Assembly (NCBI GenBank): GCA_023374045.1
Contig: CM041780.1
Coordinates: forward strand, 168,512,085 to 168,576,084
Direction: 5' to 3'
From: Limonium bicolor
Taxonomy: Eukaryota > Streptophyta > Magnoliopsida > Caryophyllales > Plumbaginaceae
Length of the DNA stretch: 64,000 bases
How positions within the stretch are numbered: position 1 is the stretch's first letter; each line of letters opens with the position of its first letter. The notes under the pieces are model-generated. The model saw nothing but the letters and a program-made list of their open reading frames with translations. It did no database searches and had not been told where the DNA came from. The translations under genes and the position numbers were made by a program. Positions 3,031-56,827 of the stretch are shown here, in pieces.

Positions 3031-5088
3031 ATGTTGCAGGGAGTTATTATCATTCAATGTTGCTCGCGCCGCTCTCTTTACCAAAAATTGTTCTATGGAA
3101 CGACCTTTCAAGCACGACACGTTGCCCATAGCTTCCCCTATCGTGATCGGCGATCCCTTAATCAAGTTGACCTCTACCTCCATCGAGCCAAGCTGATTGA
3201 CTCTATCCGTCTCTGTCTCCGTTCAGGCTCTCCTGATTCTCTGCTTCCTATCCTAGACGACCCAAATTTGGATTCTTTTGTGGTTACTAACGCTTTGCTC
3301 TCAGCTCCTTCCCCAGACTCTGCTCTCTCCTTTGTGAAGCTACTGCAAAGGGTTCCAGATTTTGTGCACTCCCAGCATTCTCTCCACGCTCTAGCGAATC
3401 CTTGCAAAATCAGGCCGTATCGCAGAGCTGAAAAAGCTGATTGCTGCCATCAATGATGGGAAATTTGACAAGGTTCTTCCTGTTAGCTTTATGGATCAAA
3501 TGCGATGGTTTGCTTTAGCTGGGAAAATAGAAGAGGTACTTGATGTTTGGGATGAGTACAGAGCTCAAGGAAAGCGCCCATGTACGGAGTCTTACAATAT
3601 AGTGATGAGCCTTTATGCACGAGATGGTAAGAATTTGGATGCCGTCAAGACTTTCTATAGGCTGATAGAGGAAGGTGGCATCCCAAATTCCAGGACTTAT
3701 ACGGTTATCATAGAGCATCTTGTGAATTCAAAGAAGGCTGATGTGGCAAAGGAGATTTTTTATATGTTGCCACTGTTGAGGACTAAACGCACCCTGAAAC
3801 AATTTTCTGTTCTCATGGAATCTTTTTCCGATCTTCGACAAGTCGATGCCCTGAAAGACCTAATTGCTGATATGAAGGTTGAAGGTCTGCTGGCCGGAAG
3901 ATCGATGCTTGGCTCCTTGCAGCTTATGCAAGAAGCTGGTTTTTTGCAGGAAACGGATAATATTATCAAGGATATGTTGCCTGATAATAGAATTCACGTT
4001 ATAGAGATATCCAAGCATTATAGTGGCGATGATGATGATGATGACGATGATGATGGTGATAATGATGAAGAAGATGAGGATGAAAATGATCTTGTGGATG
4101 TTGGTGACATGGCAGATAAAGTTAAGTTGAAGCCCTGGTTGGATCCAAGTGCCCTGGCAAGTGCTTTGCGGCATTGGAAACCCGAGGAGGTATTGTCTCT
4201 CGAGGATGCTAAATTTGTTTGGACAAGACGTTTAGTATGCAAAATGATTAGACATTTCAAAAAGGCTGAAACAGCCTGGCAATTCTTCTGCTGGGTTGCT
4301 TATCAACTGGATTTCATTCATGATGTCCATACTGTATCAAGGATGATGGTTAAACTAGCACGCTCTGGGAATCATGATCTTGTCGACAAGCTAATATTGA
4401 AGTTGAAGGATGAGGGGATGAAACTCGAATTTTCTACTGTGAGACTGATCATTGATTTCTATGGCCTCTCAAAGAAAGCAGATGCTGCGTTGAACATCTT
4501 CCAGGATGTCAAAACACTTTGTGGTGAACCCATATCAGAATCTCAGATGTTGCTACTGTGTTCCTCTCTCTTGAGAGCGTTAGCCAAGTGCGGAAGGGAT
4601 TCTGATGCAATGAATTTGGTAGAAGAGATGTTGGCAGGTGGCATTCACCCTGATATACAAATGTTTTCTGGGTTAATGCATCATTTCGCTCTTAAAGGAG
4701 ACTTCAGTACTGTTCAAAACTGTTTGGGCTTGTTAGACAGAGTGGAGTGAAGCCTGATGCTTATATGTACAAAGTCCTAATTCATGCTTATTGCAAATGT
4801 GGAAGGGCTGCTCTTGCTTTGAGGCTATTCGAGGACATGAGAAATTCCCACCTATTACCTGATAGATATACAAAATCAGTGCTTGTGAAGAGTCTGTGGA
4901 AAGAAGGGAGGTTGAAAGAAGCTGCCCATGTCGAGGAAAGCTGTGAGGGTATTGATGAGACTCTCCCACTTGCTTTGCCTGGTCATCTGTTCACTGTAAG
5001 CTCGGTGGATCTTATGAGAGTGTACAAGAGTTATCATTCCAGCTTTGCCACTACTACAAGCGAGGGTAAAGCAAGTTTTGGAGTGTAA
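3031..5088 (+). CDS. Pentatricopeptide-repeat (PPR) protein, frame broken twice
   Basis: Three consecutive plus-strand frames (3031-3456, 3491-4750, 4747-5088) read as one protein of about 670 residues. PPR signatures include ESYNIVMSLYARDG and NSRTYTVIIEHLVNSKKADV in the middle segment, HPDIQMFSGLMHHFALKGDF late in it, and DAYMYKVLIHAYCKCGRAAL in the last. Such P-class proteins bind organellar RNA, and the N-terminal segment could hold a targeting peptide. An acidic run of about 20 Asp/Glu residues (about 4024-4095) separates two PPR blocks. Frame changes lie near 3395 (continuing as LAKSGRIAELKKL) and near 4722 (LLRQSGVKPDAYMY after a 1-bp loss or 2-bp gain). Either sequence errors or a recent pseudogene would explain them. 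Stop TAA at 5086-5088. From memory it resembles the Arabidopsis At5g15980/At3g02490 group; not checked. Confidence 0.85.
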
Positions 5089-6168: not shown

Positions 6169-6557
6169 TGATGAAACACCCTTTTAGGCTTGGAAATCAG
6201 TCGACATGAAGGTCACGTATATTAGGGAAAAGTGGGCAGAAGCTTACAATAGGTTACCGGAAATAGCTAAACATAGGAAAGAATAGGAACATTCTCCCAA
6301 AGGGAGCCAAACTCAAGACAAGCCCTGTCTAAACCACGAATGGCCAAAAGAGTAAACATCCAGATACCCCTCTCGGTTAGATAACATACTACTTATACTA
6401 TACTGAGAGAGGAAAAGACAAACTAGAAGGATAAGGACTAAATAACAGCATAACAGTGATACTCCCATCTCCTGCAAATATTCTTTGCCGGCAGGTGGTG
6501 GTCCCCTACTTTTTGGTCTCGTTATTCCCAACCGTCCCTAGCCCCCAGGTTCTATCA
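6169..6557 (-). repeat. Element A LTR 1 (outermost 3' LTR)
   Basis: 389 bp, TGATGAAACACCC...GGTTCTATCA. Nearly identical to the copies at 22351-22716 and 24411-24800. The purine tract (minus-strand AGGGGAGGAA) lies just inside at about 6558-6567, as expected for a 3' LTR of a minus-strand element. The short frame at 6313-6531 lies wholly inside the LTR and recurs in LTR2; no evidence that it is translated. Confidence 0.85.
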
Positions 6558-6865
6558 TTCCTCCCCTGGTTAACAACCACCTTGTCCTCAAGGTGGTGCA
6601 TACAGAAAAAATTTGTGATTATATGGTCTCGATTTGGCCTCTTCCGGTGGCACCCATTTGGTCTCTTCCGGTGACGCCACTGGTGTCGGGTCCGACAACT
6701 CCCGTTTGGTCGCAACAATGTGAAGCCAAGCCTGCCATCTTCCTCCATACTTCCCTCCTTGGTAGACAGTCACCTTGTCCTCAAGGTGGTGATGTACCCA
6801 GGAAATTCCCTTGGATCCGAAGAAGCTTAAAGATTTCGACTGTCTATTCTTAAGGGGAGTGCAAA

Positions 6866-7555
6866 CTAGTAGCCTCTATTTCTGGCCAGAAGTGGTGATT
6901 TCTGAGGGATGAGACGAGGGGCCAAAAACAATTTGCCCGGTCGAGTCCATGGGTCACTACTTTGCTGTACAACCACACGTTGAGAGCTTCTACTATTTAA
7001 TATTGGAAATTCTTTCGGTGTCCTCGTACGGACTGGTGGGCTGATTCCCAATATGAGCCCAAAATATTTCCAGCTACCATTCCATTGAGTCTCTCGGTAA
7101 AATAAACTCCAGGATTTGGGCCCACTTACCTGTCCTAAGGCTTGAATAAAAAAGAACCCTAGCCATCTCACGTGACTTACTCTAGTCTTCTTCCACCTAA
7201 GAACTTCAGCTGTTGTCAACGACGTTTCACTGAACCAGACCGCCCGTCTCTTCCCTCTCTTCTGACTAAGGTCTCTTCTCCAATTTATGTGTGACTCTGG
7301 TCTGGTTTGAAGCGCCATCAGATAGGCGTACAATATGGGGTTCTTGCCCTTCTTAACATTCTGCTGTGTGAGTTGGATCTTGCGCTCGAACTGCCAGACA
7401 GAAGAGAATGGATTCCGGCGAAGTCGCCGGAAAATACTCGCCCGACGAGAAGCTCTTGAAGAACCAACGGGAGATTTAGAGAAATAATTAGGTTTAGAGA
7501 TTATCCTGATCTTCTTGATGAGGTTACCTGGTACGTGTGATTGAGGTATGTGCAA
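6866..7555 (-). CDS. Element A second ORF, internal domain 1
   Basis: A 229-codon minus frame following the Gag frame, with basic and tryptophan-rich composition. It is preserved with small differences in internal domain 2 (23095-23715). No protease, reverse transcriptase or integrase motif is visible. It could be the C-terminal part of a longer Gag-like polyprotein entered by frameshift, or an accessory protein. It overlaps the end of the Gag frame by about 30 bp. Function unknown. Confidence 0.4.
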   Translation of the reverse strand: MHIPQSHVPGNLIKKIRIISKPNYFSKSPVGSSRASRRASIFRRLRRNPFSSVWQFERKIQLTQQNVKKGKNPILYAYLMALQTRPESHINWRRDLSQKRGKRRAVWFSETSLTTAEVLRWKKTRVSHVRWLGFFFIQALGQVSGPKSWSLFYRETQWNGSWKYFGLILGISPPVRTRTPKEFPILNSRSSQRVVVQQSSDPWTRPGKLFLAPRLIPQKSPLLARNRGY

Positions 7556-8251
7556 TTGAATCCACTTCTTCCTCCTCTTCTTTTTTGTTACGTTTCTTCT
7601 TCTCCTTTTTCATATGACAAATCTTCTTCTGTCTTCTCCATTTTTCTGTTTCCCGAAAGCTCATATCAGTCTGATAGGACCAACTGCGAGAGTCCCACCT
7701 TCCTTCCCTTTGATTACCTTCTTCCTCTCTAGTGTTCAGCTTTCGACCCCTCTTCCTTCTTTTTGCCTTCGATTTTGATTTCGATTCTCGGATCCTCTCA
7801 ACCTTGGTAATTAAATTCACTGGATTGTTAGATTCCAGCTCCAGTACCTCCTCTATGATTTCTGAATGTAGTGCTGGGTTTCTAACTTCAACCAGTTTCA
7901 ATTCCTCCATTCCTACTTCCCTCATGTCGATTGGTACCTCAGTCCCGGTTTCCTGTGTCATTTGAGACTCTGTAGAGTTTCCAAACTTATCCAGAAGTAG
8001 TTTCTGGAAATCTAGCCAAGGCAGCTCACCGAAGCGAATCCACACCCCTTCGAACCAGCTACGAGCTTCTCCTCCCAAACCCCATCCGCTGCTTGAAACC
8101 AGAAACAATCGGGGATGGAGTTGTCGGCAAAATACTTCTCAGCCTTGTTCAGCCAGCTACGAGAGTCTTCTCCGCTGAAGGTCGGAGGCTCGTGTGCGTG
8201 TATTATCTCCATTTCCAACTCCACTAAACAGGATCTAGGCTCTGATACCAA
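7524..8251 (-). pseudogene. Element A Gag, internal domain 1, frameshifted
   Basis: Two overlapping minus frames (8012-8251 and 7524-8108) form one Gag-like protein. Family-typical features are HEPPTFSGEDSRSWLNKAEKYF near the N terminus and a GEARSWFEGVW segment followed by WLDFQKLLLDKFGN, the usual layout of the retrotransposon Gag capsid domain. A Lys/Arg/Glu-rich tail follows and I see no CCHC knuckle. Comparison with the intact copy at 23786-24409 shows the break near 8080-8090, where one base is missing (GVWEE against CLGGE). The start lies a few bases from the primer-binding site. Confidence 0.75.
8238..8251 (-). promoter_or_regulatory. Element A primer-binding site (initiator tRNA-Met)
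   Basis: Minus-strand TTGGTATCAGAGCC one base from the start of LTR2 (8253). TGGTATCAGAGC is the standard complement of the 3' end of plant initiator tRNA-Met, used to prime minus-strand DNA synthesis. Confidence 0.85.
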
Positions 8252-8252
8252 T

Positions 8253-8282
8253 TGATGAAAAACACCCTTTTAGGCTTGGAAA
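8253..8282 (-). repeat. Element A LTR 2, left fragment
   Basis: The first 30 bases of the middle LTR, cut off by element B. It continues at 22351. GGAAA at 8278-8282 and 22351-22355 is the 5-bp target duplication created by element B. Confidence 0.85.
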
Positions 8283-11200
8283 TGAAATACCCCAAACCTT
8301 AATATGTTAATTAATTATGTAATTATGATATTCTGAGGCTAATTGAGTCCTTAATATCGTGGTGGTAAAAGAAAATAATAAAAAAAAACACAAAAAGAAA
8401 AGAAAACGCGTAAAAGTCACAAACGCAAAAACGCGTGTTAAATAATTATAGTAAGTATATAACTTATCTAGGGTCCTAAATGGATTCCTAGGACTTATTT
8501 AGTCACTAAGAACACGTGGGAAGAATTCCCGAAGGAAACAGATCCAAATAGTGGATTAAAAGCACAAACAAGCTTTAAAACACGTTTTTCAAGAAAACCG
8601 AAAAACGTGACTTTAAACAGTTAAATCGGACTTGTATAAATTATAGTTGATTTTGTAACTATAATTATATACTAATTAAAGTCTAAGAATTTTTAGAATA
8701 AAAAAAAATATTCCGGAAACTAGACCCGGACTGTTAAACTGACAGTTCGGGAATTTACGGGTGTTATCTGCTAATGACCAAGTGTCACTCTCTCACATTG
8801 TAAAATAAAATCAGATTTTTGTTCCCCCTCTCTTTGTGTCTACGTGAGAGAGCCCCCTCTCTATTCTATTAATTCTACTTTATTCACTAAAATACAAAAA
8901 CAACAAAAGCAAACAAGTACAACTTACCCTTTATTTTCTCTTTCCTCTACTTTTCTCCTTCCCTCCCGATTTTCCCTTTGCCATCGCTCTCTCTCTGCTC
9001 ATTTGGCTCTTCAATGGCGATTTTGTGAGCCATCTCAACCCACACTTCTCCTTCCTTGTTCCTCCACTAAAGCAAGTCAAAATCAAAAACAAAATACACC
9101 AAAATACTCACCTTGCCTTGGAGATCATTTTGTACCTTTCAAAATCTGCAAACTCCACATTTGACTTCCATGGGTGTAGCTCATTTCGAAGAGGAAACCA
9201 CCCATTCTTGAAGCTAATAAACCCCTTTGATGGTTTAATGTAAGAAATAACTCAAAAGCTCATTCATTTCTCCATTTCTTCATGGCCGGTTTTGCCCCTG
9301 TTTTGAGCTCCATCTTGTTCTTCATTTTAGCTTGTTTGAACTCACCTTAAGTGCTGGAGCTTTCCCATTTTCCTTCCCAAACAGCCATTGTGAAGGAGAA
9401 GGTAAAGTCTCTTCATTTCCATGCTTAAACACCCTCTTGTTTTAGGTTTGTTGCAAGAACCTTATTTAAATTCCTTGGTACTCATCACCATTTATGGTAT
9501 TTGGTCATTAGTGTAGCAAGTAACCCCTTTGGAAACCGGTGGTGGAATAAGAAGTAAGGAGGAGGGAAGTTTGAAAGAAATCCAAGGTAAATAACTTACC
9601 TTAAACTTATGTAGTGTTAAAGGAATTTGTGTTTTATTTTAGTGCAAATATAAATGTTGGGTGTAATGCAGGTGTTGCTAATAATATGAGGAAATTCAGT
9701 GCTTAGTTTGATGTTGATTAAGGGCCGAAGAGCCAAGCTTTTAAGGTTTATGTATATTGAGTGCTATTGTTGTTGGAAATGGTGAATTTTAAGTGTGGTT
9801 TGGTGCCTTGGATGAATTGATGGTTGGAGTGTTTTAGTGGGTTAAATAATGTGAGGGAACATGTTAAATTATGGGGAGATCATGTCAAAATTTGTGTAGA
9901 AATTTAATGGTTTAAGTGCATCTCCAGGTGGGAACAAACTAGAGAACTACAAGGTATTTTGAGAGGAAAAATTTAGTATAAAAATCGGTTGGAAACTAGG
10001 TAGATGGAGATGGGAAGATGAATGAAGTTAAGGTGGGAATGTTGCATTATTTGTGGACTAGTAAGTGGGTGAGAGTGGTGAGAAAAATCTGTAGCATAAC
10101 ACTTAACAAAATTAAGCTTTGGCTCTTTAAGAGGGGAGTGGGAGATTTGGGTGAATTTGGTTAAGAATTGGGTAACAAGTTTAGGTGATGATTTAGGCAA
10201 GTTTAGAGGCCATTATAGTGTTAGAAGATGCCTAAAACCATGTAGGAAGCTTGGAGCAACAATGGGATGAAGTTTGGAGTTAAATGAGCATTTAGAAACA
10301 AGGGTCTGGAGCCGACCGACCTTGGGGACCGGACTTGCAAGGTCGGTCGGGCTTAAATTTTGTGCGCGGGGATCTTTCTGGAATCGACCGACCTTGGGGA
10401 CCGGACTTGCAAGGTCGGTCAGACTCAAATCTTGTACTCGGAAATGTTTCTGGAATGGACCGACCTTGGGGACCGGACTTGCAAGGTCGGTCGGGGTAGA
10501 ATTTTCAGACGGGAAGTGTTCTGGAATGGACCGACCTTGGGACCGGACTTGGCAAGGTCGGTCGAAGTAAAAAGCTTTCGAACCTGGATGCTACTGGAAT
10601 GGACCGACCTTGTGTAAGGTCGGTCGACCCAAACCTATCAAAAAAAAAAACAAAGTGTGGCTTAGGTAGTAAACCCTAGTGGGTATAATAGGGACAATCA
10701 AGTGTAAGTTTAAGCATAAAAATATGCCATATAAACATGTAAAATGTTTAGTAAATCGGGAGTTAAGTAAGTCAATTAACCGACATTATTAATCATGTAT
10801 AGGAACTACCTTCGGTGGGATTCGTACACAACAAGGACCAAGGTATAGTTTTCTTGCAGTCTGTTGCCTACCGGTTTACACCGGCTTGTGTGTTGTTTGT
10901 TTTTCTGCATGTTTATGACCTTGTAAGATTAAATCATGAAATGAGTTTACAGTTATTGTTGTTGTTGTATTGTGCGCGTACCGATACCGGTAAGCTCGAA
11001 TGCGTACTAATTTTTAGTTAACCGATATTAGGAACACGTAAGAGAACGGTATCCGGTAATAACGTTCCAACCTAAGGAACGTTCTAACCACGGCTATGAA
11101 TGAGTTGTTGTGGTATGTGTACTGAAGTGTAACTCACTTCCCTTGTATGTCTAACTGGCCTTAAACACTTAGTTGTGGAAGATTGTGTAAGTTCCCACTG

Positions 11201-12126
11201 TGGGACTTCTAACAAGTGCTAATCGGGGAGTGAGGAATCCGGTCATTCCGGTCACGCGTGTATGTACGGGGTCGACATCTGAATCAGATTCGGCTCTCTC
11301 TTATGTTAAGGTTGTTTTCCTTTTTGGATTCTGACCGCCCACTAGCTTAGCCAAAGCTTACCTACCTGACTTCCAATCGGGCTAGGGGGAAATTATATGT
11401 TCGGTGTGCTCGGATCACTATATCTGTCACGCCTATGTGTTAAGTTACTTGTCCGACTAACAGATCGGTAATGAGTTATGTAACAAGCTTAACATGAGGA
11501 TGAAATCATCCTCTAGGCTTACCATGTTGACTAACTATGGTGGTTGTTTCATAAGTGAAATGTTCTCACTATGTATGTGTTGTTATTGTCATGCAATATT
11601 CCTTGCTATGTAATATGTTTGTTGTATGTAAAATCAATGCCATGTTATCCTAACAAATAGTTGTGTGTATCCCGGTAGTCAGCGGGCTGCATGTTAACCA
11701 TGTCAGCCAAGGGTTGCTGACCCCCCTTGGGGAGGGGGGCTCCATATTATTTTTCAGGAGAGTGATTGAGGAGGCGGAGTGGTTATAGCATGCATGGAGA
11801 CCGGAGGAATACTTTTGTTATTTTTGGATATTGAACCCGAGTAGTGCTTGTACACTCGAGGTCGTATATTTTGGTGGATATAGGATTAGATTGGTGATTT
11901 TTGTACATTAACACTCGGTATATTGTGGTTCTTTTTGGCAAGTAATTTTGAAGGTTGTAATTATGCTCGGGATTCCTGTAATCAGACCGATACATTTGTA
12001 AGTAACAGCCTTGTTAGCCACGTGGGCGGCTAACGACGTGTAACACCGCCTTTTTGGTTAATGACTAAGTTATGTTTTTCTGCTGCGATTATTGTTAAGT
12101 GTGGAGGTTATGGTTGGGGTGTTACA
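8283..12126 (+). repeat. Element B 5' LTR
   Basis: Begins TGAAATACCCCAAACC and ends GGGGTGTTACA; mate at 18514-22350. Its first 0.6 kb is AT-rich, followed by a CT-rich tract near 8820-9010 and a palindrome array at 10314-10627. Small frames such as 8844-9164 and 10274-10617 occur in both copies but show no known domain. Confidence 0.9.
10314..10627 (+). repeat. Palindrome array in element B 5' LTR
   Basis: Five units with a period of 71-73 bp. Most contain GACCGACCTTG, a short spacer and CAAGGTCGGTC, so each can fold into a hairpin. The linker reads TTTCTGGAATGGACCGACC in the third unit and TTCTGGAATGGACC in the fourth. The fifth unit has a shortened loop. Short frames through it (10274-10570, 10360-10617) are repeat read-through. 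Confidence 0.85.
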
Positions 12127-12131
12127 AAAAG

Positions 12132-12143
12132 TGGTATCAGAGC
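12132..12143 (+). promoter_or_regulatory. Element B primer-binding site (initiator tRNA-Met)
   Basis: TGGTATCAGAGC five bases after the 5' LTR, complementary to the 3' end of initiator tRNA-Met. Confidence 0.9.
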
Positions 12144-12287
12144 GAAGTATCGCTCTGATTGCCTGGTTACCGAGCTTAGGAGTATACCGAGTAGGGAAAC
12201 CTAAACCTTGTCGTCCAAAGGACGTTATAGACATTTGACCCGATAAGTTTGTAAGCGCAATACTAATGTGCGCTCTTGTATGTTCAG

Positions 12288-13760
12288 ATGGCAGGGCGAC
12301 CACGAGGAGGAGGTCGCGGGGGGCCCGGTCCAGGAGACACGGGGGGTAACCCTACCGCTCAGATTATGGCCGAAGCAGTGGCGGCCGCCCTAGCACAAGT
12401 GGTACCTCAGATAGTAGCTGTAGTGCAGCAAGGGCAGCAACAGCCCGTTGGTCAGGATCATTCGGAACCACCACCACCACCACCGTAGCCACGCGAGACC
12501 AATTGGGTGAAAGCGTTGGCCGATTTACGACCACCGTCCTTCAAAGGGGAGACCGACCCTTCCAAACTAGAGGCGTATATCTCGGAGCTAGAGACCGCCT
12601 ACGAGACCTTGGCTGTTCCTGCTGATGCCAAGGTCCTCTTGCTGCTGCGTTTTACTTGAAGGGCTCGGCTAGGAACTGGTGGAAACTTGTACGGGCTGAG
12701 AAGGTGGCCCGACCCAAATTTTGGATGGGAATAGTACACGGCATTACTACGGGCCAAGTACTACCCAGTACACGTGCAAGAGGCAAAGCGCCTGGAGCTT
12801 GACAGCTTGAAGCAAGGAGACAAGATGTCGGTGGACGACTACTACACCGCCTTCACCGACCTTGTTCATCTTCTACCCGACCTAGGTTACTCGAACCGGG
12901 TCTTAGTGAATCGCTTCTACAGCGGGCTAAGCCACCGCCTACGCTACGGCATGGGGCCAGCCGAGTATAATACCTTGTAGGTAGCTTAAAATAATGCCTA
13001 AGTGTGAATGAGTTATGTTATGTGTGAGTGTGTAAATGTGTGTGGGGCATGAACTAACCCTTGAACCTCAGGAGTGCTATCATGCCGCTGCTAAGGTGGA
13101 GATCACCGTCCGTCTGAGGGACGAGGAGAATGCGCATAAGCGCAAGGTCTCGAGCGAGGGCCAAAGCACGCAAGGGTACGGAGGAAAGAAGAAGAAATCG
13201 TACCCCCAGCCCAGAAAGGCCAGCAACAGGGTGGCAAAGGCCAAGCCCAGACCACCACCGCTGAGGAGCTACTGAATCTCACTTATGCCTATGCGGCTAA
13301 ACCCTGCGCTCTCAACCGCTCAAGGGTGATCACCTGATTCTGAAATCGAATTTGAATGTGAGTTGTTAAGTTGAAAAGTGTGTACTGATTGTGTAATGTG
13401 ATAGCAGCCTGTACGGGCTCTGGACCGGAGCGCCACTACTTCTGCAAGTGGTGCAACGGTGACCACCCCGGCAAGGACTGCAAAGGAAATGATGTGCAGT
13501 GTCGCTACTGCAAGAAGATGGGGCACCGTGACTTCGAGTGCTACCAGAACCCCGATGGCAGAAATTATAGGCCTAAGGGGCAGTGGAAGGGTAAGGCGGC
13601 CACGACTACTGAGGGCCCGAAAGCTACTCATCAGCCATCCTCAGGACAGGGGAACACTGACTCCCAAAAGGGGAAAGGGACAGGACCCGGCAAGGCCTCC
13701 CTGCATGTGGTGGACCGGTCAGAGGCACCAGGATCCTCTTCTAGACCAGGTACCACTTAA
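12288..13760 (+). pseudogene. Element B Gag with CCHC zinc knuckles, interrupted
   Basis: Gag begins at ATG 12288 with a Gly/Arg/Pro-rich leader (MAGRPRGGGRGG). A stop at 12486-12488 interrupts it before the capsid segment (WVKALADLRPPSFKGETDPS; then EAKRLELDSLKQGDKMSVDD at 12774-12980). Basic linker at 13070-13275. The last part (13389-13760) has two zinc knuckles, CKWCNGDHPGKDC and CRYCKKMGHRDFEC, the second matching Cx2Cx4Hx4C. Intron-like stretches lie at about 12976-13070 and 13318-13408, with GT starts and CTCAG or AGCAG ends. Either real introns or decay separates the pieces. Confidence 0.75.
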
Positions 13761-13897
13761 ACCGTTTAGTGGAATAAAGTGATTGCATACCGCATTTCAT
13801 GCATGTGTGTTAGTGAGCCTAAATGTACCACCACGTAAGTAATGAGTTAAAGTATATGTGAAAGTCACCTAAATTAGACAATTCTTCTAAACCTTAG

Positions 13898-14639
13898 GAA
13901 CCTTCAATATTTGTTATCCAATCCCACCCACACCGAACCCCCGACGAGACCAACATCAACATCGCCGACTATCCGACAGAATAGTGTCAGGTTATCCAAC
14001 CAGGTATGATATTATTAAGAGGATACCTGACACCTGAAACACAAACCCATATCATCTGACGATGCAACAAACTGGGAACAGCACCTGGAGGTTTCTACAC
14101 ACCGGAATACCCGAATGGGTCAAAAATGAAATTGAAGATGATGTGCATGGGTAAGGACTGGAATCCTTACACCAAGACATATCAAGATACACGAGCTGAA
14201 GATGGAGCGATTATACCGAGTATACCTGAGGAATTCCTTGCGGTCATTAATCATGCCGTGGGAATTGCTCAGCAAGTTGAATCGGAGCCAATTCCGAGTA
14301 TCAAGGCGGATCTATGTATTATAAACTTCTACGAAAAGGATGGAAGACTGGGTTTACACCAAGACAGGGACGAGACGCCCGAGTCTCTTGATAAGGGAAT
14401 ACCCGTGGTATCTTGGTCCATTGGTGATACCGCTGAGTTATTTACGGCGAGCAGAAGCGTGCGGACCGCTCGCAAAGAAGTTGGTGTTGAAGTCAGGAGA
14501 TGTGTTAATCATGGGTGGGCAGTCGAGGATGCTGTATCATGGTATCAAGAAGATCAAACTGAATACGGCGCCTCCGATAGTAATTAATGCCACACACATG
14601 AAACCTGGACGTTTGAATTTAACTTTTAGGCAATTTTGA
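13898..14639 (+). pseudogene. AlkB-like 2OG-Fe(II) dioxygenase domain inside element B
   Basis: Frame 2 runs from about 13898 with QPGMILLRGYL near 13997-14027, then GTAPGGFYTPEYPNGSK, MCMGKDWNPYTKTYQDTR, LCIINFYEKDGRLGLHQDRD and VSWSIGDTAE. This is the plant AlkB-homologue order. HxD is His 14357 / Asp 14363. After two apparent small indels between 14430 and 14480 it continues in another frame with LKSGDVLIMGGQSRMLYHGI (distal iron His at 14538-14540) and ends RLNLTFRQF, giving the Rx5R 2-oxoglutarate-binding motif at 14610-14630, then stop TGA. In-frame stops at 13982 (TAG) and 14057 (TGA, probably from CGA) also break it. AlkB enzymes oxidatively remove methyl groups from RNA or DNA. It lies between Gag and protease, possibly as an extra exon: an intron-like 150-bp stretch precedes it (13749-13897, ending CCTTAG) and a ~200-bp stretch follows. 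The best-fitting relatives I know are nuclear plant AlkB homologues of ALKBH1 type. A viral AlkB is a less likely source. Confidence 0.85.
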
Positions 14640-14879
14640 AGCCATGTGTACTCATGTAATCCATGAAGTTAGTTGTATGTTGGGCATGTGATGTATTAAG
14701 TATGCTAGGTGTTAAGTGATGTTGTTAATGTAATACCACTCATGGTGTAAAGGATGGGTTTATGAATAAGACAGTGATGATTTCTTGAGTAAACCACCCG
14801 TATTATTACCATTATACTTATAAAGTTTCTGAAATAAATTAGGCGCTGCACTCGGAACGGAAGGTACACTAAGTGTGTT

Positions 14880-15545
14880 ACAGAGGCAGAGGCCGGCAGA
14901 AGCGGCACTATCCTCACCGGTACCTTCCCAGTGAATGGCGTGGATGCGTCGATCCTGTTCGACTCCGGAGCCTCACATACGTTTGTCTCACTCTCATTTG
15001 CGAGGAGACTGGGGTTAGACGCGGAGGAGATGCTAGACTTCCTAGTCACTCTCCCGTCTAAGGAGCGGATCAGATGCACCCGTTATTACCGAGATGCCAC
15101 CATCCGAATTAAGAATGAAGAGTTTCCGATCGACATGATAGAGTTCGAGGGGCTTGGATTTGATGTGATTGTGGGGATGAATTGGTTGGAGTGGTACAAG
15201 GGTCGAATCATATGTGTCGAGCACCGTCTGCTTCTTCGGAGTCCATCTGGGGTTACCATTTCATACCGCCAGAGGCCCAGAGAGCCTTCGACACAGATCA
15301 TCTCCGCCATGGCCATGTATCGTGAAATCAGAGGAAAGAATGACGTATACCTCTGCTATGTCCAGGACATAGAAAGAGATCCAGAGTTTAGCCCAGATGT
15401 GCCGGTTGTGTCGGAGTTTCCTGATGTCTTTCCTAAGGAGCTCCCAGGCATGCCGCCTACACGGGCAGTTGAGTTGAGATTGACTTGTACCGGGCCCGGG
15501 CACCGGACCGATAGCGAAGGCACCCTGCCGTATGGCTCCAGCTGA
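14880..15545 (+). pseudogene. Element B aspartic protease and start of Pol
   Basis: The frame open at 14931-15545 has upstream sequence TEAEAGRSGTILTGTF and the protease active site FDSGASHTFVS at about 14957-14990, with the expected C-terminal GFDVIVGMNWL. It runs on to EFPDVFPKELPGMPP, the usual N-terminal edge of the reverse transcriptase module. It then loses frame before the RT proper at 15635. Confidence 0.85.
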
Positions 15546-15549
15546 GATG

Positions 15550-16765
15550 GCAGAGCTCAAGGAACAGCTGTGAGACCTACTCGACAAGATTCATTCGCCC
15601 GAGCGTATCTCCATGGGGAGCACCAGTCCTCTTCGTGAAGAAGAAGGATGGTAGTCTCCGCCTCTGCATCGATTACCGAGAGCTGAATGTTGTTACGGTG
15701 AAGAACCGTTACCCATTGCCGCGTATCGATGATTTGTTTGACCAGCTGAAAGGTGTTTCTGTGTTCTCTAAGATCGATCTGCGATCGGGTTACCATCAGA
15801 TTGCTATCAGAGATAGTGACATTGAGAAGACCGCATTCCAAACCAGATATGACACTATGAATTCACGGTCATGCCGTTTGGTTTATCTAATGCACCGGCA
15901 AACGTTTATGGACTTGATGAATCGTTTATTCCGAGATCAGTTGGACAAGTCAGTAGCTGTCTTCATCGATGATATTCTTATTTATTCTAAGTCCAAGGTT
16001 GAGCATGAAGATCACTTGAGGAGTGTATTGCAGACATTGAGAGAGAACCAGCTTTATGCGAAGTTCTCGAAGTGTGAATTTTGGCTAGACCAAGTCTCTT
16101 TTCTTGGTCATGTTATTTCGGAGGCCGGGATCGCTGTGGATCTGGCCAAGATTGATGCTGTGCGTACCTGGCCTAGGCCGAAGACGGTTACCGACATCCA
16201 GAGCTTCCTCGGTCTGGCAGGTTATTATAGGAGATTTGTGAAGAATTTTTCCAGTGTTTCGAAACCCTTGACATCCTTAATGAAGAAGGATGCGCCATTT
16301 GAGTGGACAGTTGACTGTGAGAGTTCATTTCAGAATCTCAAGGATGCTTTGACTTCTGCACCAGTTCTGACTATACTAGATGGTACTGATGGTTTTGAGG
16401 TGTACTGCGACGCGTCAGGCAAAGGTATGGGCTGTTTTTTGATGCAACACGGGAAGGTCGTGGCCTACGCCTCCCAACAGTTGAAGCAATATGAAGAAAA
16501 CTATCCTACACATGATTTAGAATTGGGTGCCATTGTCTTCGCCTTGAAGATATGGCGACACCATCTGTATGGAGTGAATGTGATGATTTATTCAGATCAC
16601 AAGAGTTTGAAATACCTGTTCACTCAGAAGGAGTTGAACATGAGGCAAAGAAGATGGGTTGAATTCCTTAATGATTACGATATTAACCTTCAGTACAAGG
16701 AAGGAAAGGCGAATGTTGTAGCTGATGCATTGAGTCGCCGAGCACACTCTCCATCTCTCACCTAA
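15550..16765 (+). pseudogene. Element B reverse transcriptase and RNase H
   Basis: The 376-codon frame at 15635-16765 carries RT motifs [16 protein letters not shown] and [13 protein letters not shown], the catalytic box [10 protein letters not shown] (FIDD), [11 protein letters not shown] and the connection [11 protein letters not shown]. RNase H follows with [40 protein letters not shown] and [11 protein letters not shown]. Between the palm motifs about 20 residues near 15850-15900 are out of frame: two opposite indels scramble the conserved [12 protein letters not shown] box while the flanks stay in frame. The sequence is closest to Tekay/Del chromoviruses as I know them. Confidence 0.9.
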
Positions 16766-16779
16766 TCTCTCACTCTAGC

Positions 16780-17830
16780 TTGGTTGATGAGGTGCGAAGC
16801 GCTCAGATGTCCGATCAGTACATGCAAGAGATCAGACAGAAGCTTATTGACGGCACATTCGAAGGTCAAAAGTATGATTTCCGACTGCACGATGACGATC
16901 TAATCAGACTGAATGGCCGACTTGTATTCCACGAAGTAGCGCTGAGCTGAAGGAGTGCATACTGAGCGAAACACAACTGTTCTACCACTTCGATTCACCC
17001 CAGAGCTTCAAAGATGTATAAGGATATGAAACGATACTTTTGTGGACGGAAATGAAAAGGATGTAAAGAATGATTATGTTGTGAGGTGTCTCACTTGCCA
17101 GAAGGTCAAGTTTGAGCACCGACAGCCTGATGGTATGGTGCAGCAATGCCAGTGCCTGAGTGGAAGTTCCATGATATTTCCATGGACTTCGTAGTAGGGC
17201 TTCCGCCTGCAAGGGGAGGTCTGAATATGATTTGGGTCGTTGTTGACCGACTGACCAAAGTGGCCCGATTCATTCCGATGAAGGACACTTGGAAAGTGGC
17301 GAAGCTAGCAGAGCTCTTCGACCGAGAGATAGTACGACACCATGGAGTACCAAAGACTATCGTGTCTGATAGGGATACCAGATTCCTCTCGAGGTACTGG
17401 AGAACTACACGGGAAGCACTTGGTACTGAACTGAAGTTGAGTATGGCATTCCACCCACAGAAAGATGGTCAGAGTGAGCGCACATACAGACACTTGAGGA
17501 TATGTTACGTGCATGTGCACTTGACTTTCAAACCAGCTGGATTGATAAGTTACATCTGATCGAGTTTTGCTACAACAACAATTACCATGCTTCGATCAAG
17601 ATGTCTCCCTTCCATGCTTTGTACGGTAGACCATGTCGCACGCCATTATGCTGGGATGAATCGAGTGAGACGATCATTATAGGACCCGAGTACTTAGAGC
17701 AAGTACAAGCAGAAGTATGCCAGATCCGGGCTAACATAAGGCAGCTCAGGATAGGCAAAAGCATACGCCGATGTGCGCAGACGTGACCTAGAGTTCGCCT
17801 GGGCGATCAGGTGTTTCTTAGAGTATCCCC
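16780..17830 (+). pseudogene. Element B integrase
   Basis: Broken frames: zinc-finger remnant (CLTCQKVKFEHRQP region, about 17090-17120), then the catalytic core at 17146-17559 with WKFHDISMDFVVGLPPARGG (first Asp), IWVVVDRLTKVARFIPMKDT, TIVSDRDTRFLSRYW (second Asp) and FHPQKDGQSERT (Glu). 17502-17786 continues with LIEFCYNNNYHASIKMSPFH and the GRPCRTPLCW strand. The frame changes near 17495 and stops intervene upstream, so no intact integrase is made. Confidence 0.85.
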
Positions 17831-18225
17831 CATGAAGGGAGTATTTCGTTTTGGCTAGAAAGTAAGTTGAGCCCGAAGTACGTGGGGCCTTATGTTGTGA
17901 CGGAGCGGATAGGCCCGATGGCTTACAGGCTTGATCTGCCTGCTGAGCTGGGACAGGTACACGATGTTTTCATGTGTCCCAGTTGAAGAAATATATGTCT
18001 CATCCGTCTCATGTGCTTCAGCCCGAAAGGCTAACCTTAGAGCCGACCATGGCGATCAGTGGAGACTCCTCGTACAGATTCGGGACACCAGAGCTTGAGA
18101 CACGTTCTCATAAATTCTGTGAGACTGGGAGGTCCTTGTCTAACCAGGACGTCGATGGAGGCAACCTGGTGAGATGGAAGATAAGATGAGGGCGAAGTCC
18201 CGTCTTTGTTGTAGCTTCTTTATAT
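17830..18225 (+). pseudogene. Element B integrase C-terminus and chromodomain remnant
   Basis: The GPY/F-like stretch near 17870-17960 leads to SQLKKYMSHPSHVLQPE (17974 on) and then a frameshifted tail that resembles the chromovirus chromodomain: LSNQDVDGGNLVRW in one frame, MEDKMRAKSR in another (18174). Chromodomains direct chromovirus integration to heterochromatin marks. The domain is broken at about 18150-18175. Confidence 0.65.
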
Positions 18226-18256
18226 TTGTATGTATAGGGTATGGGGCGTACCCCTA

Positions 18257-18272
18257 TTTTAAGGGGGGTAGA
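18257..18272 (+). promoter_or_regulatory. Extra polypurine tract of element B
   Basis: TTTTAAGGGGGGTAGA, identical to the LTR-adjacent tract at 18497-18512 and 240 bp upstream of it. Confidence 0.6.
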
Positions 18273-18496
18273 GCCGCTTCGGTTATGTGTGTACGACATG
18301 TATTGAAATACATCGTCTATGTTATGTTGTTATGTGGTTATGTTACAGACCGTTGTGTCTGAATGATGTTGTGTTGTTGGACCTTGAGTCCGATGTTATG
18401 TAAAATATGTTTGTTATGAAGGTGCAGTTTTAGAAGTAATCCCCGTGTTCTAATATTTAAGACACGTGAGAAGTGTGAACTTTGGGCACAAAGTTC

Positions 18497-18512
18497 TTTT
18501 AAGGGGGGTAGA
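18497..18512 (+). promoter_or_regulatory. Element B polypurine tract
   Basis: TTTTAAGGGGGGTAGA one base before the 3' LTR at 18514. This is the primer site for plus-strand DNA. Its neighbourhood is nearly identical to that of element C. Confidence 0.9.
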
Positions 18513-18513
18513 T

Positions 18514-21500
18514 TGAAATATCCCAAACCTTAATATGTTAATTAATTATGTAATTATGATATTCTGAAGCTAATTGAGTCCTTAATATTGTTGGTGGTAA
18601 AAGAAAATAATAAAAAAAACCAAAAGAAAAGAAAACGCGTAAAATTCACAAAACGTAAAAACGCGTGTTAAATAATTATAGTAAGTATATAACTTATCTA
18701 GGGTCCTAAATGGATTCCTAGGACTTATTTAGTCACTAAGAACATGTGGGAAGAATTCCCGAAGGAAACGGATCCAAATAGTGGATTAACAGCACAAACG
18801 AGGCTTTAAAGCACGTTTTTCGAGAAAACCGAAAAATGTGACTTTAAACAGTTAAATCGGACTTGTATAAATTATAGTTGATTTTGTAACTATAATTATA
18901 TACTAATTAAAGTCTAAGAATTTTTAGAATAAAAAAAAATATTCCGGAAACCGGACTCGGACTGTTAAAACTGACAGTTCGGGAATTTACGGGTGTTATC
19001 TGCTAATGACCAAGTGTCACTCTCTCACATTGTAAAATAAAATCAGATTTTTGTTCCCCCTCTCTTGTGTCTACGTGAGAGAGCCCCCTCTCTATTCTAT
19101 TAATTCTACTTTATTCACTAAAATACAAAAACAACAAAAGCAAACAAGTACAACTTACCCCTTTATTTTCTCTTTCCTCTACTTTTCTCCTTCCCTCCCG
19201 ATTTTCCCTTTGCCATCGCTCTCTCTCTGCTCATTTGGATCTTCAATGGCGATTTTGTGAGCCATCTCAACCCCACACTTCTCCTTCCTTGTTCCTCCAC
19301 TAAAGCAAGTCAAAATCAAAAAAACAAAACCAAAATACTCACCTTGCCTTGGTGATCATTTTGTACCTTTCAAAATCTGCAAACTCCACATTTGACTTCC
19401 ATGGGTGTAGCTCATTTCGAAGAGGAAACCACCCATTCTTGAAGCTAATAAACCCCTTTGATGGTTTAAGGTAAGAAATAACTCAAAAGCTCATTCATTT
19501 CTCCATTTCTTCATGGCCGGTTTTGCCCCTGTTTTGAGCTCCATCTTGTTCTTCATTTTAGCTTGTTTGAACTCACCTTAAGTGCTGGAGCTTTCCCATT
19601 TTCCTTCCTAAACAGCCATTGTGAAGGAGAAGGTAAAGTCTCTTCATTTCCATGCTTAAACACCCTCTTGTTTTAGGTTTGTGCAAGAACCTTATTTAAA
19701 TTCCTTGGTACTCATCACCATTTATGGTATTTGGTCATTAGTGTAGCAAGTAACCCCTTTGGAAACCGGTGGTGGAATAAGAAGTAAGGAGGAGGGAAAG
19801 TTTGAAAGAAATCCAAGGTAAATAACTTACCTTAAGCTTATGTGGTGTTAAAAGAATTTGTGTTTTATTTTAGTGCAAATATAAATGTTGGGTGTAATGC
19901 AGGAGTTGCTAATAATATGAGGAAATTCAGTGCTTAGTTTGATGTTGATTAAGGGCCGAAGAGCCAAGCTTTTAAGGTTTATGTATATTGAGTGCTATTG
20001 TTGTTGGAAATGGTGAATTTTAAGTGTGGTTTGGTGCCTTGGATGAATTGATGGTTGGAGTGTTTTAGTGGGTTAAATAATGTGAGGGAACATGTTAAAA
20101 TTATGGGGAGATCATGTCAAAATTTGTGTAGAAATTTAATGGTTTAAGTGCATCTCCAGGTGGGAACAAACTAGAGAACTACAAGGTATTTTGAGAGGAA
20201 AATTTAGTATAAAAATCGGTTGGAAACTAGGTAGATGGAGATGGGAAGATGAATGAAGTTAAGGTGGGAATGTTGCATTATTTGTGGACTAGTAAGTGGG
20301 TGAGAGTGGTGAGAAAAATCTGTAGCATAACACTTAACAAAATTAAGCTTTGGCTCTTTAAGAGGGGAGTGGGAGATTTGGGTGAATTTGGTTAAGAATT
20401 GGGTAACAAGTTTAGGTGATGATTTAGGTAAGTTTAAGAGGCCATTATAGTGTTAGAAGATGCCTAAAACCATGTAGGAAGCTTGGAGCAACAATGGGAT
20501 GAAGTTTGGAGTTAAATGGGCATTTAGAAACAAGGGTCTGGAGCCGACCGACCTTGGGGACGGACTTGCAAGGTCGGTCGGGCTTAAATTTTGTGCGCGG
20601 GGATCTTTCTAGAATCGACCGACCTTGGGGACCGGACTTGCAAGGTCGGTCAGACTCAAATCTTGTACTCGGAAATGTTTCTGGAATGGACCGACCTTGG
20701 GGAGCGGACTTGCAAGGTCGGTCGGGGTAGAATTTTCAGACGGGAAGTGTTCTGGAATGGACCGACCTTGGGACCGGACTTGGCAAGGTCGGTCGAAGTA
20801 AAAAGCTTTCGAACCTGGATGCTACTGGAATGGACCGACCTTGTGTAAGGTCGGTCGACCCAAAACCTATCAAAAAAAAAACAAAGTGTGGCTTAGGTAG
20901 TAAACCCTAGTGGGTATAATAGGGACAATCAAGTGTAATTTAAGCATAAAAATATGCCATATAAACATGTAAAATGTTTAGTAAATCGGGAGTTAAGTAA
21001 GTCAATTAACCGACATTATTAATCATGTATAGGAACTACCTTCGGTGGGATTCGTACACATCAAGGACCAAGGTATGGTTTTCTTGTAGTCTGTTGCCTA
21101 CCGGTTTACACCGGCTTGTGTGTTGTTTGTTTTTCTGCATGTTTATGACCTTGTAAGATTAAATCATGAAATGAGTTTACAGTTATTGTTGTTGTTGTAT
21201 TGTGCGCGTACCGATACCTGTAAGCTCGAATGCGTACTAATTTTTAGTTAACCGATATTAGGAACACATAAGAGAACGGTATCCGGTAATAACGTTCCAA
21301 CCTAAGGAACGTTCTAACCACGGCTATGAATGAGTTGTTGTGGTATGTGTACTGAAGTGTAACTCACTTCCCTTGTATGTCTAACTGGCCTTAAACACTT
21401 AGTTGTGGAAGATTGTGTAAGTTCCCTGTGGGACTTCTAACAAGTGCTAATCGGGGAGTGAGGAATCCGGTCGTTCCGGTCACGCATGTATGTACGGGGG

Positions 21501-22350
21501 TCGACATCTGAATCAGATTCGGCTCTCTCCTTATGTTAAGGTTGTTTTCCTTTTTGGATTCTGACCGCCCACTAGCTTAGCCAAAGCTTACCTACCTAAC
21601 TTCCAATCAGGCTAGGGGGAAATTATGTGTTCGGTGTGCTCGGATCACTATATCCGTCACGCCTATGTGTTAAGCTACTTGTCCGACTCACAGATCAGTA
21701 ACGAGTTATGTAACAAGCTTAATATGAGGATGAAATCGTCCTCTAGGCTTACCATGTTGACTAACTATGGTGGTTGTTTCTTAAGTGAAATGTTCTCACT
21801 ATGTATGTGTTGTTATTGTCATGCAATATTCCTTGCTATGTAATATGTTTGTTGTATGTAAAATCAATGCCATGTTATCTTGACAAATAGTTGCGTGTAT
21901 CCCGGTAGTCAGCGGGCTGCACGTTAACCATGCCAGCCAAGGGTTGCTGACCTCCCTTGGGGGGGCTCCATATTATTTTTCAGCAGAGTGATTGAGGAGG
22001 CGGAGTAGTTATAGCATGGAGACCGGAGGAATACTTTTGTTATTTTTAGATATTGAACCCGAGTAGTGCTTGTACACTCGAGGTCGTATATTTTGGTGGA
22101 TATAGGATTAGATTGGTGATTTTTGTACATTAACACTCGGTATATTGTGGTTCTTTTTGGTAAGTAATTTTTGAAGGTTGTAATTATGCTCGGGATTCCT
22201 GTAATCTGACCGATACATTTGTAAGTAACAGCCTTGTTAGCCACGTGGGCGGCTAACGGCGTGTAACACCACCTTTTTGGTTAATGACTAAGTTATATTT
22301 TTCCGCTGCGATTATTGGTTAAGTGTGGAGGTTATGGTTGGGGTGTTACA
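18514..22350 (+). repeat. Element B 3' LTR
   Basis: 3837 bp, ends in TGTTACA followed by the GGAAA target duplication. A near-identical mate of the 5' LTR with small indels (several single-base and 3- to 5-bp differences by eye), implying an insertion that is not brand new. The start reads TGAAATATCCC here against TGAAATACCCC in the 5' copy. Confidence 0.9.
20546..20858 (+). repeat. Palindrome array in element B 3' LTR
   Basis: Same five-unit array as 10314-10627. One GACC has become GAGC and a G is missing in the first unit; unit number is conserved between the LTRs. Confidence 0.85.
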
Positions 22351-22716
22351 GGAAATCAGTCGACATGAAGGTCACTTATATTAGGGAAAAGTGGGCAGAA
22401 GCTTACAATAGGTTACCGGAAATAGCTAAACATAGGAAAGAATAGGAACATTCTCCCAAAGGGAGCCAAACTCAAGACAAGCCCTGCCTAAACCACGAAT
22501 GGCCAAAAGAGTAAACATCCAGATACCCCTCTCGGTTAGATAACATACTACTTATACTATACTGAGAGAGGAAAAGACAAACTAGAAGGATAAGGACTAA
22601 ATAACAGCATAACAGTGATACTCCCATCTCCTGTAAATATTCTTTGCCGGCAGGTGGTGGTCCCCTACTTTTTGGTCTCGTTATTCCCAACCGTCCCTAG
22701 CCCCCAAGTTCTATCA
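22351..22716 (-). repeat. Element A LTR 2, right fragment
   Basis: Continues the 30 bp at 8253-8282 after element B and ends GTTCTATCA at 22716. Adding the halves and removing the GGAAA duplicate gives an LTR of about 391 bp. Confidence 0.85.
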
Positions 22717-23094
22717 TTCCTCCCTGGTTAACAACCACCTTGTCCTCAAGGTGGTGCATACAGAAAAAATTTGTGATTATATGGTCTCGATTTGGCCTCT
22801 TCCGGTGGCACCCATTTGGTCTCTTCCAGTGACGCCACTAGTGTCGGGTCCGACAACTCCCGTTTGGTCGCAACAATGTGAAGCCAAGCCTGCCATCTTC
22901 CTCCATCCTTCCCTCCTAGGTAGACAGTCACCTTGTCCTCAAGGTGGTGATGTACCAAGGAAATTCCCTTGGATCCGAAGAAGCTTAAAGATTTCGACTG
23001 TCTATTCTTAAGGGGAGTGCAAACTAGTAGCCTCTGTATCTGGCCAGAAGTGGTGATTTCTGAGGGATGAGACGAGGGGCCAAAAACAATCTAC

Positions 23095-23715
23095 CTAGTC
23101 GAGTCCATGGGTCTGACTACTTGGCTGTACAACCACACGTTGAGAGCTTCTACTATTTAATATTGGAAATTCTTTTGGTGTCCTCGTACGAACTGGTGGG
23201 CTGATTCCCAATAAGAGCCCAAAATATTTCCAGCTACCATTCCATTGAGTCTCTCGGTAAAATAAACTCCAGGATTTGGGCCCACTTACCTGTCCCAAGG
23301 CTTGAATAAAAAAGAACCCTAGCCATCTCATGTGACTTACTCTAGTCTTCTTCCACCTAAGAACTTCAGTTGTTGTCAACAACGTTTCACTGAACCAGAC
23401 CGCCCGTCTCTTCCCTCTCTTCTGACTAAGGTCTCTTCTCCAATTTATGTGTGACTCTGGTCTGGTTTGAAGCGCCATCAGATAGGCGTACAATATGGCG
23501 TTCTTGCCCTTCTTAACATTCTGCTGTGTGAGTTGGATCTTGCGCTCGAACTGCCAGTCATAAGAGAATGGATTCCGGCGAAGTCGCCGGAAAATACTCG
23601 CCCGACGAGAAGCTCTTGAAGAACCAATGGGAGATTTAGAGAAATAATTAGGTTTCGAGATTACCCTGATCTTCTTGATGTGGTTACCTGGTACGTGTGA
23701 TTGAGGTATGTGCAA
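23095..23715 (-). CDS. Element A second ORF, internal domain 2
   Basis: A 206-codon minus frame, near-identical over most of its length to 6866-7555 but stopping sooner because of a small indel near 23115. It is basic and Trp-rich (QALGQVSGPKSWSLFYRETQ). Function unknown. The frame stays open in both copies despite substitutions, which would fit selection or a short time since duplication. Confidence 0.4.
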   Translation of the reverse strand: MHIPQSHVPGNHIKKIRVISKPNYFSKSPIGSSRASRRASIFRRLRRNPFSYDWQFERKIQLTQQNVKKGKNAILYAYLMALQTRPESHINWRRDLSQKRGKRRAVWFSETLLTTTEVLRWKKTRVSHMRWLGFFFIQALGQVSGPKSWSLFYRETQWNGSWKYFGLLLGISPPVRTRTPKEFPILNSRSSQRVVVQPSSQTHGLD

Positions 23716-23785
23716 TTGAATCCACTCCTTCCTCCTCTTTTTTTTTACGTTTCTTCTTCTCCTTTTTCATATGACAAATCTTCTT

Positions 23786-24409
23786 CTATCTTCTCCATTT
23801 TTCTGTTTCCCGAAAGCTCATATCAGTCTGATAGGACCAACTGTGAGAGTCCCACCTTCCTTCCCTTTGATTACCTTCTTCCTCTCTAGTGTTCAGCTTC
23901 CGACCCCTCTTCCTTCTTTTTGCCTTCGATTTTGATTTTGATTCTTGGATCCTCTCAACCTTGGTAATTAAATTCACTGGATTGTTAGATTCCAACTCCA
24001 GTACCTCCTCTACGATTTCTGAATGTAGTGCTGGGTTTCTAACTTTAACCAGTTTCAATTCCTCCATTCCTACTTCCCTCATGTCGATTGGTACCTCAGT
24101 CCTGGTTTCCTGTGTCATTTGAGACTCTGTAGAGTTCCCAAACTTATCCAGAAGTAGTTTCTGGAAATCTAGCCAAGGCAGCTCACCGAAGCGAATCCAC
24201 ACCCCTTCGAACCAGCTACGAGCTTCTCCTCCCAAACACCCATCCGCTGCTTGAAACCAGAAACAATCGGGGATGGAGTTGTCGGTAAAATACTTCTCAG
24301 CCATGTTCAGCCAACTACGAGGGTCTTCTCCGCTGAAGGTCAGAGGCTCGTGTGCGTGTATTATCTCCATTTCCAACTCCACTAAATAGGATCTAGGCTC
24401 TGATACCAA
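23786..24409 (-). CDS. Element A Gag, internal domain 2, intact frame
   Basis: A 207-codon minus frame starting MVSEPRSYLVELE just inside the primer-binding site. The capsid-type segment FSGEDPRSWLNMAEKYFTDN and GEARSWFEGVWIRFGELPWL is intact here. An acidic centre and a Lys/Arg-rich tail (ESKSKSKAKRRKRGRK) follow, likely nucleic-acid binding. No zinc knuckle, protease or RT. The start fits because it is the first ATG after the PBS. The intact frame makes this copy the reference for the element family. Confidence 0.75.
   Translation of the reverse strand: MVSEPRSYLVELEMEIIHAHEPLTFSGEDPRSWLNMAEKYFTDNSIPDCFWFQAADGCLGGEARSWFEGVWIRFGELPWLDFQKLLLDKFGNSTESQMTQETRTEVPIDMREVGMEELKLVKVRNPALHSEIVEEVLELESNNPVNLITKVERIQESKSKSKAKRRKRGRKLNTREEEGNQREGRWDSHSWSYQTDMSFRETEKWRR
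24396..24409 (-). promoter_or_regulatory. Element A second primer-binding site
   Basis: Same initiator tRNA-Met site as 8238-8251, adjoining LTR3. Two PBS sites in one insertion confirm two internal domains. Confidence 0.85.
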
Positions 24410-24410
24410 T

Positions 24411-56755: not shown

Positions 56756-56827
56756 CCGTACTGGTCAGTGTCGAGTGATTGTGTGTCCCAGGAGGCTTCT
56801 TATGGTGTGGGAGTCAGACAGCGAAGT

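Follow-up and report, generated by a model that had tools for sequence, protein, structure and literature searches.

An ALKBH1-type AlkB domain carried as a putative alternative 3' exon by a Ty3/gypsy retrotransposon family of Limonium bicolor

Introduction

Among 121 plant genome assemblies screened, AlkB domains within long terminal repeat (LTR) retrotransposons were reported from Phalaenopsis only, according to the accessible text of that study (Alvarado-Marchena et al. 2022, PMC9289625). Here, we describe a stretch of 64,000 nucleotides from Limonium bicolor (GenBank assembly GCA_023374045.1, contig CM041780.1, positions 168,512,085 to 168,576,084 of the forward strand; referred to here as the window), in which a Ty3/gypsy element, named element B, carries an AlkB domain between its Gag zinc knuckles and its protease. 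The domain recurs in copies of the element across the genome, and it is probably expressed as an alternative 3' exon, which would be joined to Gag in one spliced RNA and skipped in another that gives Gag-Pol.

Element B resembles the Phalaenopsis element Gypsy_Pa_2799, whose second open reading frame (ORF2) is paALKBH5-like, in being a plant Ty3/gypsy element with an AlkB-type domain that keeps the cofactor residues (PMC9289625). As far as the accessible text goes, the AlkB of Gypsy_Pa_2799 is ALKBH5-like and encoded by a separate ORF2, with Gag-Pol in one ORF, whereas that of element B is of the ALKBH1D type, spliced to Gag and located ahead of the protease. The same text gives Gypsy_Pa_2799 an Ogre/Tat reverse transcriptase (RT), a tRNA-Arg primer site and a dual RNase H, whereas element B has another primer site and three introns; the Phalaenopsis AlkB demethylates N6-methyladenosine (m6A) in vitro (PMC9289625), and that of element B is a predicted demethylase. 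The preliminary description of the window knew of no plant LTR family with an AlkB domain, a view that the Phalaenopsis element, with its different AlkB, overturns. Among the matches listed in titles, abstracts and open-licence full texts, other AlkB-bearing retroelements appeared just in that paper and in a review citing it. An alternative AlkB exon giving either Gag-AlkB or Gag-Pol was not found among the matches listed in the literature on AlkB retroelements or on splicing.

BARE is a Copia-type element. Like the arrangement proposed here, its spliced subgenomic Gag RNA alters the ratio of Gag to Pol by splicing, but the spliced RNA, as described in the available text, encodes Gag only, without an added enzyme (PMC3735527). 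The gag-pro/pol intron of Ogre is a further parallel, in that a plant LTR element splices part of its transcripts to set translation; the Ogre intron is a single one between PRO and RT, and the accessible text describes neither an AlkB exon nor a second acceptor (PMC6317226).

Results

AlkB domain of element B

The preliminary description had placed the AlkB domain at 13898 to 14639, and these limits proved exact to the nucleotide: a conserved AG immediately precedes 13898, and a stop codon ends at 14639. Pfam PF13532 (2OG-FeII_Oxy_2) matches the main open frame at 14060-14587 (2.2e-19), and tblastn alignments with relatives, spread over at least two reading frames, span the domain through FRQF and the stop codon at 14639. 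The residues expected of an active site, likewise named in that description, are present in the window as the HxD pair (14357 and 14363), the distal His (14538) and the R-x5-R pair (14610 and 14628). The domains of element B follow the order Gag capsid, zinc knuckles, AlkB, protease, RT-RNase H and integrase, within these features:

8283..22350, plus strand: element B, whole Ty3/gypsy element (from self-BLAST, ends and target duplication)
8283..12126, plus strand: 5' LTR
12132..12143, plus strand: primer binding site, TGGTATCAGAGC
12288..12980, plus strand: gag exon 1, capsid (Retrotrans_gag, 3.8e-10, for 12735-12977; conserved GT at the exon end in 20 of 20 copies)
12981..13071, plus strand: intron 1 (GT in 20 of 20 and AG in 19 of 20 copies; precisely absent from 4 of 10 processed copies)
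13072..13325, plus strand: gag exon 2 (codon-position pattern 10/10/19 of 33 each for 13072-13170)
13326..13407, plus strand: intron 2 (acceptor at 13407; copies L016 and L028 use 13404)
13408..13749, plus strand: gag exon 3 with two zinc knuckles (motif and weak Pfam matches; exon end in phase 1)
13750..13897, plus strand: putative intron 3, short form, giving Gag-AlkB (donor GT in 38 of 40 and AG in 40 of 40 copies; 14 junction matches)
13898..14639, plus strand: putative AlkB exon (ALKBH1D type), ending in a stop codon of its own; the window copy is broken
13750..14842, plus strand: putative intron 3, long form, skipping AlkB and giving Gag-Pol (acceptor AG in 39 of 40 copies; 14 junction matches)
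14843..15545, plus strand: protease, start of the pol exon (RVP_2, 1.1e-27, for 14838-15545)
15515..16765, plus strand: RT and RNase H (RVT_1, 1.4e-25; RT_RNaseH, 1.6e-32)
17131..17983, plus strand: integrase core and SH3-like part, in broken frames (rve, 4e-6, under Pfam's cut-off; SH3_Tf2-1, 6.3e-16)
18514..22350, plus strand: 3' LTR

Copies across the genome

The AlkB frame and the protease each served as a query against the source genome of the window (2.92 Gb in 2,686 contigs). All 150 scored candidates matched in each search, out of 54,410 first-look candidates for AlkB (the others remaining unscored) and 59,172 for the protease, numbers that do not equal copy counts. From these we drew two samples, namely, the best 20 AlkB matches after the window copy itself, and 40 of the 150 listed protease matches (20 spread over the ranking and 20 from its first 28 rows), the latter selected blind to AlkB. 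Gag capsid, exon 2, knuckle, AlkB and protease stand in the same order in all 20 AlkB-picked copies, where the protease matches rest on DNA likeness, and RT was matched in 19 of them. Both parts of AlkB are present in every one of the 40 protease-picked copies; in 38 the knuckle precedes them in order, and the remaining two have no knuckle in the fetched stretch.

From its place within element B, the domain had been proposed to move with the element, and its identical position in both samples bears this out. The window copy alone could not exclude a one-off capture, in which a piece of a host gene had been inserted into this copy only; with the domain in 20/20 and 40/40 other copies, and only short imperfect repeats, none resembling a target duplication, at its two ends, such an insertion is refuted and can be given practically no weight. 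Judged from these copies, AlkB is a trait not of a single copy but of a plant Ty3/gypsy family that is present many times in the genome. Several of the protease matches sit in open frames of more than 1,000 amino acids, and some copies thus look young.

Alternative splicing

The donor CCAG/GTACC (13750) is conserved in 20/20 and 38/40 copies of the two samples, the AG in front of AlkB (13897) in 20/20 and 40/40, and the AG in front of the protease (14842) in 20/20 and 39/40. Gag would read into AlkB, since the donor is in phase 1 in 27 of the 38 copies measured and, in 37 of 39, the AlkB acceptor lies 5 bases ahead of the F codon. Unspliced read-through in the donor phase meets an immediate TAA in 18 of 20 copies and in the window; without splicing, Gag is clearly predicted to stop a few codons beyond the donor in most copies examined. 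Rough splice-site scores were by themselves unconvincing.

The genome also contains processed copies of both spliced forms. The Gag-protease junction, with AlkB skipped, gave 14 genome matches (7 exact, 6 with one mismatch and 1 with two), and the Gag-AlkB junction also gave 14 (9 exact, 2 with one mismatch and 3 with two), while reversed control patterns of both junctions had no genome match. In all 10 Gag-protease junction copies that were fetched, the intron and AlkB are precisely removed; four of them also lack intron 1 and three lack intron 2 (read directly in L069 and L072, and from alignment coordinates in L078). Given processed copies of both junctions, both spliced RNAs must once have been made and reverse-transcribed.

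Deletion between short matching sequences could in principle produce such junctions without splicing, as AGG is common to the donor and both acceptors and an imperfect 11-base repeat lies close to the donor and the first acceptor. However, both acceptors are matched exactly, 14 times each, the same donor joined to another, non-acceptor AG has no match in the genome, and the Gag-protease copies without intron 1 (4/10) or intron 2 (3/10) lost these precisely as well, so we regard deletion as highly improbable. The copies point firmly to AlkB as an alternative 3' exon, in which one donor would be joined to either of two acceptors of the same phase, giving Gag-AlkB or Gag-Pol. The preliminary description was thus right about the position of the domain inside the element, but the simple fusion between Gag and protease that it implied gives way to an exon that is spliced in as an alternative and ends in its own stop codon.

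Two pairs of junction sites (C2:386603599/386613668 and C2:353436704/353445884) lie one element plus LTR apart and resemble tandem arrays from a processed copy. Apart from the junction copies, intron 2 is cleanly absent and introns 1 and 3 are retained in L016 and L028 (on C4, 0.12 Mb apart), whose loss of intron 2 may be one event. The acceptor in these two copies lies 3 bases upstream of that in L069 and L072, as in partly spliced retrocopies with a NAGNAG-like choice of acceptor.

Selection on AlkB

The description had proposed comparing substitution rates across copies, and the 40 protease-picked copies gave a median ratio of nonsynonymous to synonymous substitutions (dN/dS) of 0.11 for AlkB (5-95% range, 0.05-0.20), with dN below dS in every one of the 780 pairs. 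Gapped codons and stop codons were omitted, and the pairs are non-independent. The corresponding dN/dS in the tail of gag exon 3 is 0.25 (39 copies, 718 pairs; L046 was dropped for gag only, because this part is missing there). In the HxD part of AlkB, with 126 columns per codon position, 43/36/88 are variable at positions 1/2/3; in the distal part, with 56 per position, the counts are 18/11/45 (40 copies). The noncoding flanks (39/41/33 and 44/45/38) show no codon-position pattern. The catalytic residues H, D, H, R and R are conserved in all 40 copies, and the 2-oxoglutarate (2OG)-side residues N and Y in 39 and 38, respectively, the exceptions being gaps. By an automatic reading, AlkB ends in TAA or TGA in 36 of 40 copies (L009 to L048). 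Taken together, the copies argue strongly for purifying selection on the AlkB coding sequence. AlkB distances correlate with those of gag (r = 0.63), protease (0.40) and RT (0.30) in 21 copies, as expected of coinheritance plus some recombination.

One might read the AlkB exon as a functionless passenger of an amplifying element, since AlkB-less spliced copies with RT sequence downstream occur and 30 of the 40 copies carry at least one AlkB lesion. The dN/dS of 0.11, far from the value near 1 that a passenger would show, together with the invariant catalytic residues and the stop codon kept in 36 copies, makes this very unlikely. A family-wide frameshift (+1 between the HxD and distal-His parts in 20/20 copies of the first set) was considered and rejected as an artefact of a 175-amino-acid query whose off-frame tail selected for copies with such a shift: AlkB indels differ among copies, and 10 of 20 protease-picked copies are in frame.

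Class, fold and relatives

The closest solved protein is rice OsALKBH1 (PDB 5xeg), matched at 1.5e-40 by the window frame and at 1.6e-80 by a four-sequence profile, which also matches E. coli AlkB and human and mouse ALKBH1. Element AlkB has the same active-site residues as plant ALKBH1/ALKBH1D, of which OsALKBH1 is the best solved relative by profile and fold, but lacks the long N-terminal extension of the host proteins. An ALKBH5 class, and with it the same acquisition as in Phalaenopsis, was ruled out, as no ALKBH5 match appeared up to an E value of 10 in the profile search; ALKBH5 turns up by fold alone, far down the ranking. Four unnamed database proteins (P0001, P0002, P0003 and P0071) are 59-66% identical to the HxD part of the window domain, compared with 47% for the two host proteins tried. 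In the tree, the window domain and these four form one clade (support, 98/98) apart from 33 angiosperm host rows (87/77), and a quick tree of 266 rows gives a similar result. These results support an ALKBH1-type (ALKBH1D) AlkB, in agreement with the preliminary description. The place of the clade in the tree is tentative, as approximately unbiased (AU) tests reject neither a grouping with monocots (P = 0.30) nor one with orchids (P = 0.21).

Columns that vary among the four database proteins tend not to coincide with those that 27 host proteins conserve (15/78 versus 87/132, P = 5e-11). No relatives were found in viral contigs, and no Gag-AlkB fusions were found in annotated proteins by their listed Pfam domains (best 120 of 314 matches). 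The predicted structure of P0003, a relative and not the window copy itself, has the AlkB fold (mean predicted local distance difference test score, 87.9) and aligns with OsALKBH1 at a template modeling score of 0.91 by target length and 0.73 by model length (51% identity).

Because this predicted fold matches both OsALKBH1 and E. coli AlkB bound to DNA, and because plant ALKBH1 is, by the accessible text of one report, an eraser of N6-methyladenine (6mA) in DNA that occurs in nucleus and cytoplasm and may also act on RNA (PMC8118384), the enzyme could instead act on the host, by erasing 6mA from chromatin where copies have newly inserted, by demethylating mRNAs of host defence or by repairing DNA alkylation. 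A free enzyme would fit a host target better, whereas the predicted fusion to Gag indicates the particle, and we consider action on the host rather doubtful.

Boundaries, classification and surroundings

The 14.07 kb of element B are delimited by its LTRs, target duplication and primer site. The LTRs have TG..CA ends and diverge by a Kimura two-parameter distance of 0.0186 over 3,824 aligned bases, and a perfect 5-bp target duplication, GGAAA, lies at 8278-8282 and 22351-22355. We take the primer binding site at 12132 to be of the tRNA-Met type. The zinc knuckles are plain by motif and under Pfam's cut-off, and one RNase H region was found, the stretch from there to the integrase being searched piecewise. 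The domain order and the SH3_Tf2-1 match are compatible with a chromovirus-like element; a chromodomain after the integrase, as expected of Tekay-like chromoviruses, had no Pfam match in the one piece tried of the broken tail, and because of this the element is assigned to Ty3/gypsy and no further.

Further features of the window are as follows:

3395-4750, plus strand: PPR-like open frame, by eye presumably a host gene
6192-8283 and 22351-24800, minus strand: short LTR element with an LTR of ~370 bp and a gag-like open frame
28133-51814, minus strand: second large element, with LTRs of ~4.6 kb and the same primer site as element B (42623)
34469-39144 and 43767-48381: solo-LTR-like blocks inside the second large element
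56189-56764, minus strand: LysM receptor-like open frame, by eye presumably a host gene

The short element forms a tandem array (LTR-internal-LTR-internal-LTR), and the insertion point of element B lies 5 bp within an LTR of this array. Patches of the LTRs of the second large element are 73-77% like those of element B, with no coding match to it; this is perhaps a nonautonomous relative.

Discussion

The best overall explanation, to which we give a probability of about 0.7, is that element B and its family use an ALKBH1D-type AlkB, a predicted Fe(II)/2-oxoglutarate demethylase, as an alternative 3' exon, so that a Gag-AlkB protein would enter the particle and demethylate there. Gag-AlkB would end at AlkB's own stop codon, and the splice that skips AlkB would yield Gag-Pol. 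As in Gag-Pol, the Gag part would bring AlkB into the virus-like particle, where the enzyme would lie beside the packaged RNA, its amount fixed relative to Gag and Gag-Pol. N1-Methyladenosine (m1A) and 3-methylcytidine (m3C) block reverse transcription. The N-methyl groups stripped by AlkB might be these, m6A marks or 6mA in cDNA, and their removal may aid reverse transcription or evasion of host marking. In Arabidopsis, mobilisation of the ONSEN element is aided by the host m6A eraser ALKBH9B, as stated in the available text (PMC12786077).

Several observations weigh against this explanation. The AlkB of the window copy is not intact, being interrupted by two in-frame stops as well as two or more frameshifts, and the two main AlkB parts are free of stops and gaps in a single frame in just 10 of the 40 protease-picked copies. 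Spliced copies without AlkB still have RT sequence downstream, and at least one of the 150 protease matches, C5:87139666 (outside the 40), has a spliced junction and no AlkB. The two Gag-AlkB junction copies that were read are imperfect: in L079, a single frame continues from Gag into AlkB and later reaches a stop, and L080 departs from AlkB after 58 bases. Some junction matches are near neighbours, with sites about one element apart at C2:386.60/386.61 and C2:353.44/353.45 Mb, so the independent events are fewer than 14 per junction. Delivery by Gag and the substrate of the enzyme are also points that we infer.

In its fullest form, the proposal would be a three-way switch among Gag alone, Gag-AlkB and Gag-Pol that builds a demethylase into particles by fusion to Gag, in a second, independent capture of AlkB by a plant Ty3/gypsy element; for this combination we see the odds as even. 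Based on AlkB class and architecture, element B seems to represent a second acquisition, expressed in a new arrangement. With the sequences of both junctions in hand, the splice choice is checkable in RNA data from the host species. The choice between Gag-AlkB and Gag-Pol would offer the element a specific way to load an enzyme into its particles. If the reading is true, two lineages of plant retroelements each took a different AlkB, of the ALKBH5 type in Phalaenopsis and of the ALKBH1D type here, which would be convergent comparative evidence that host methylation of RNA or DNA restrains retroelements.
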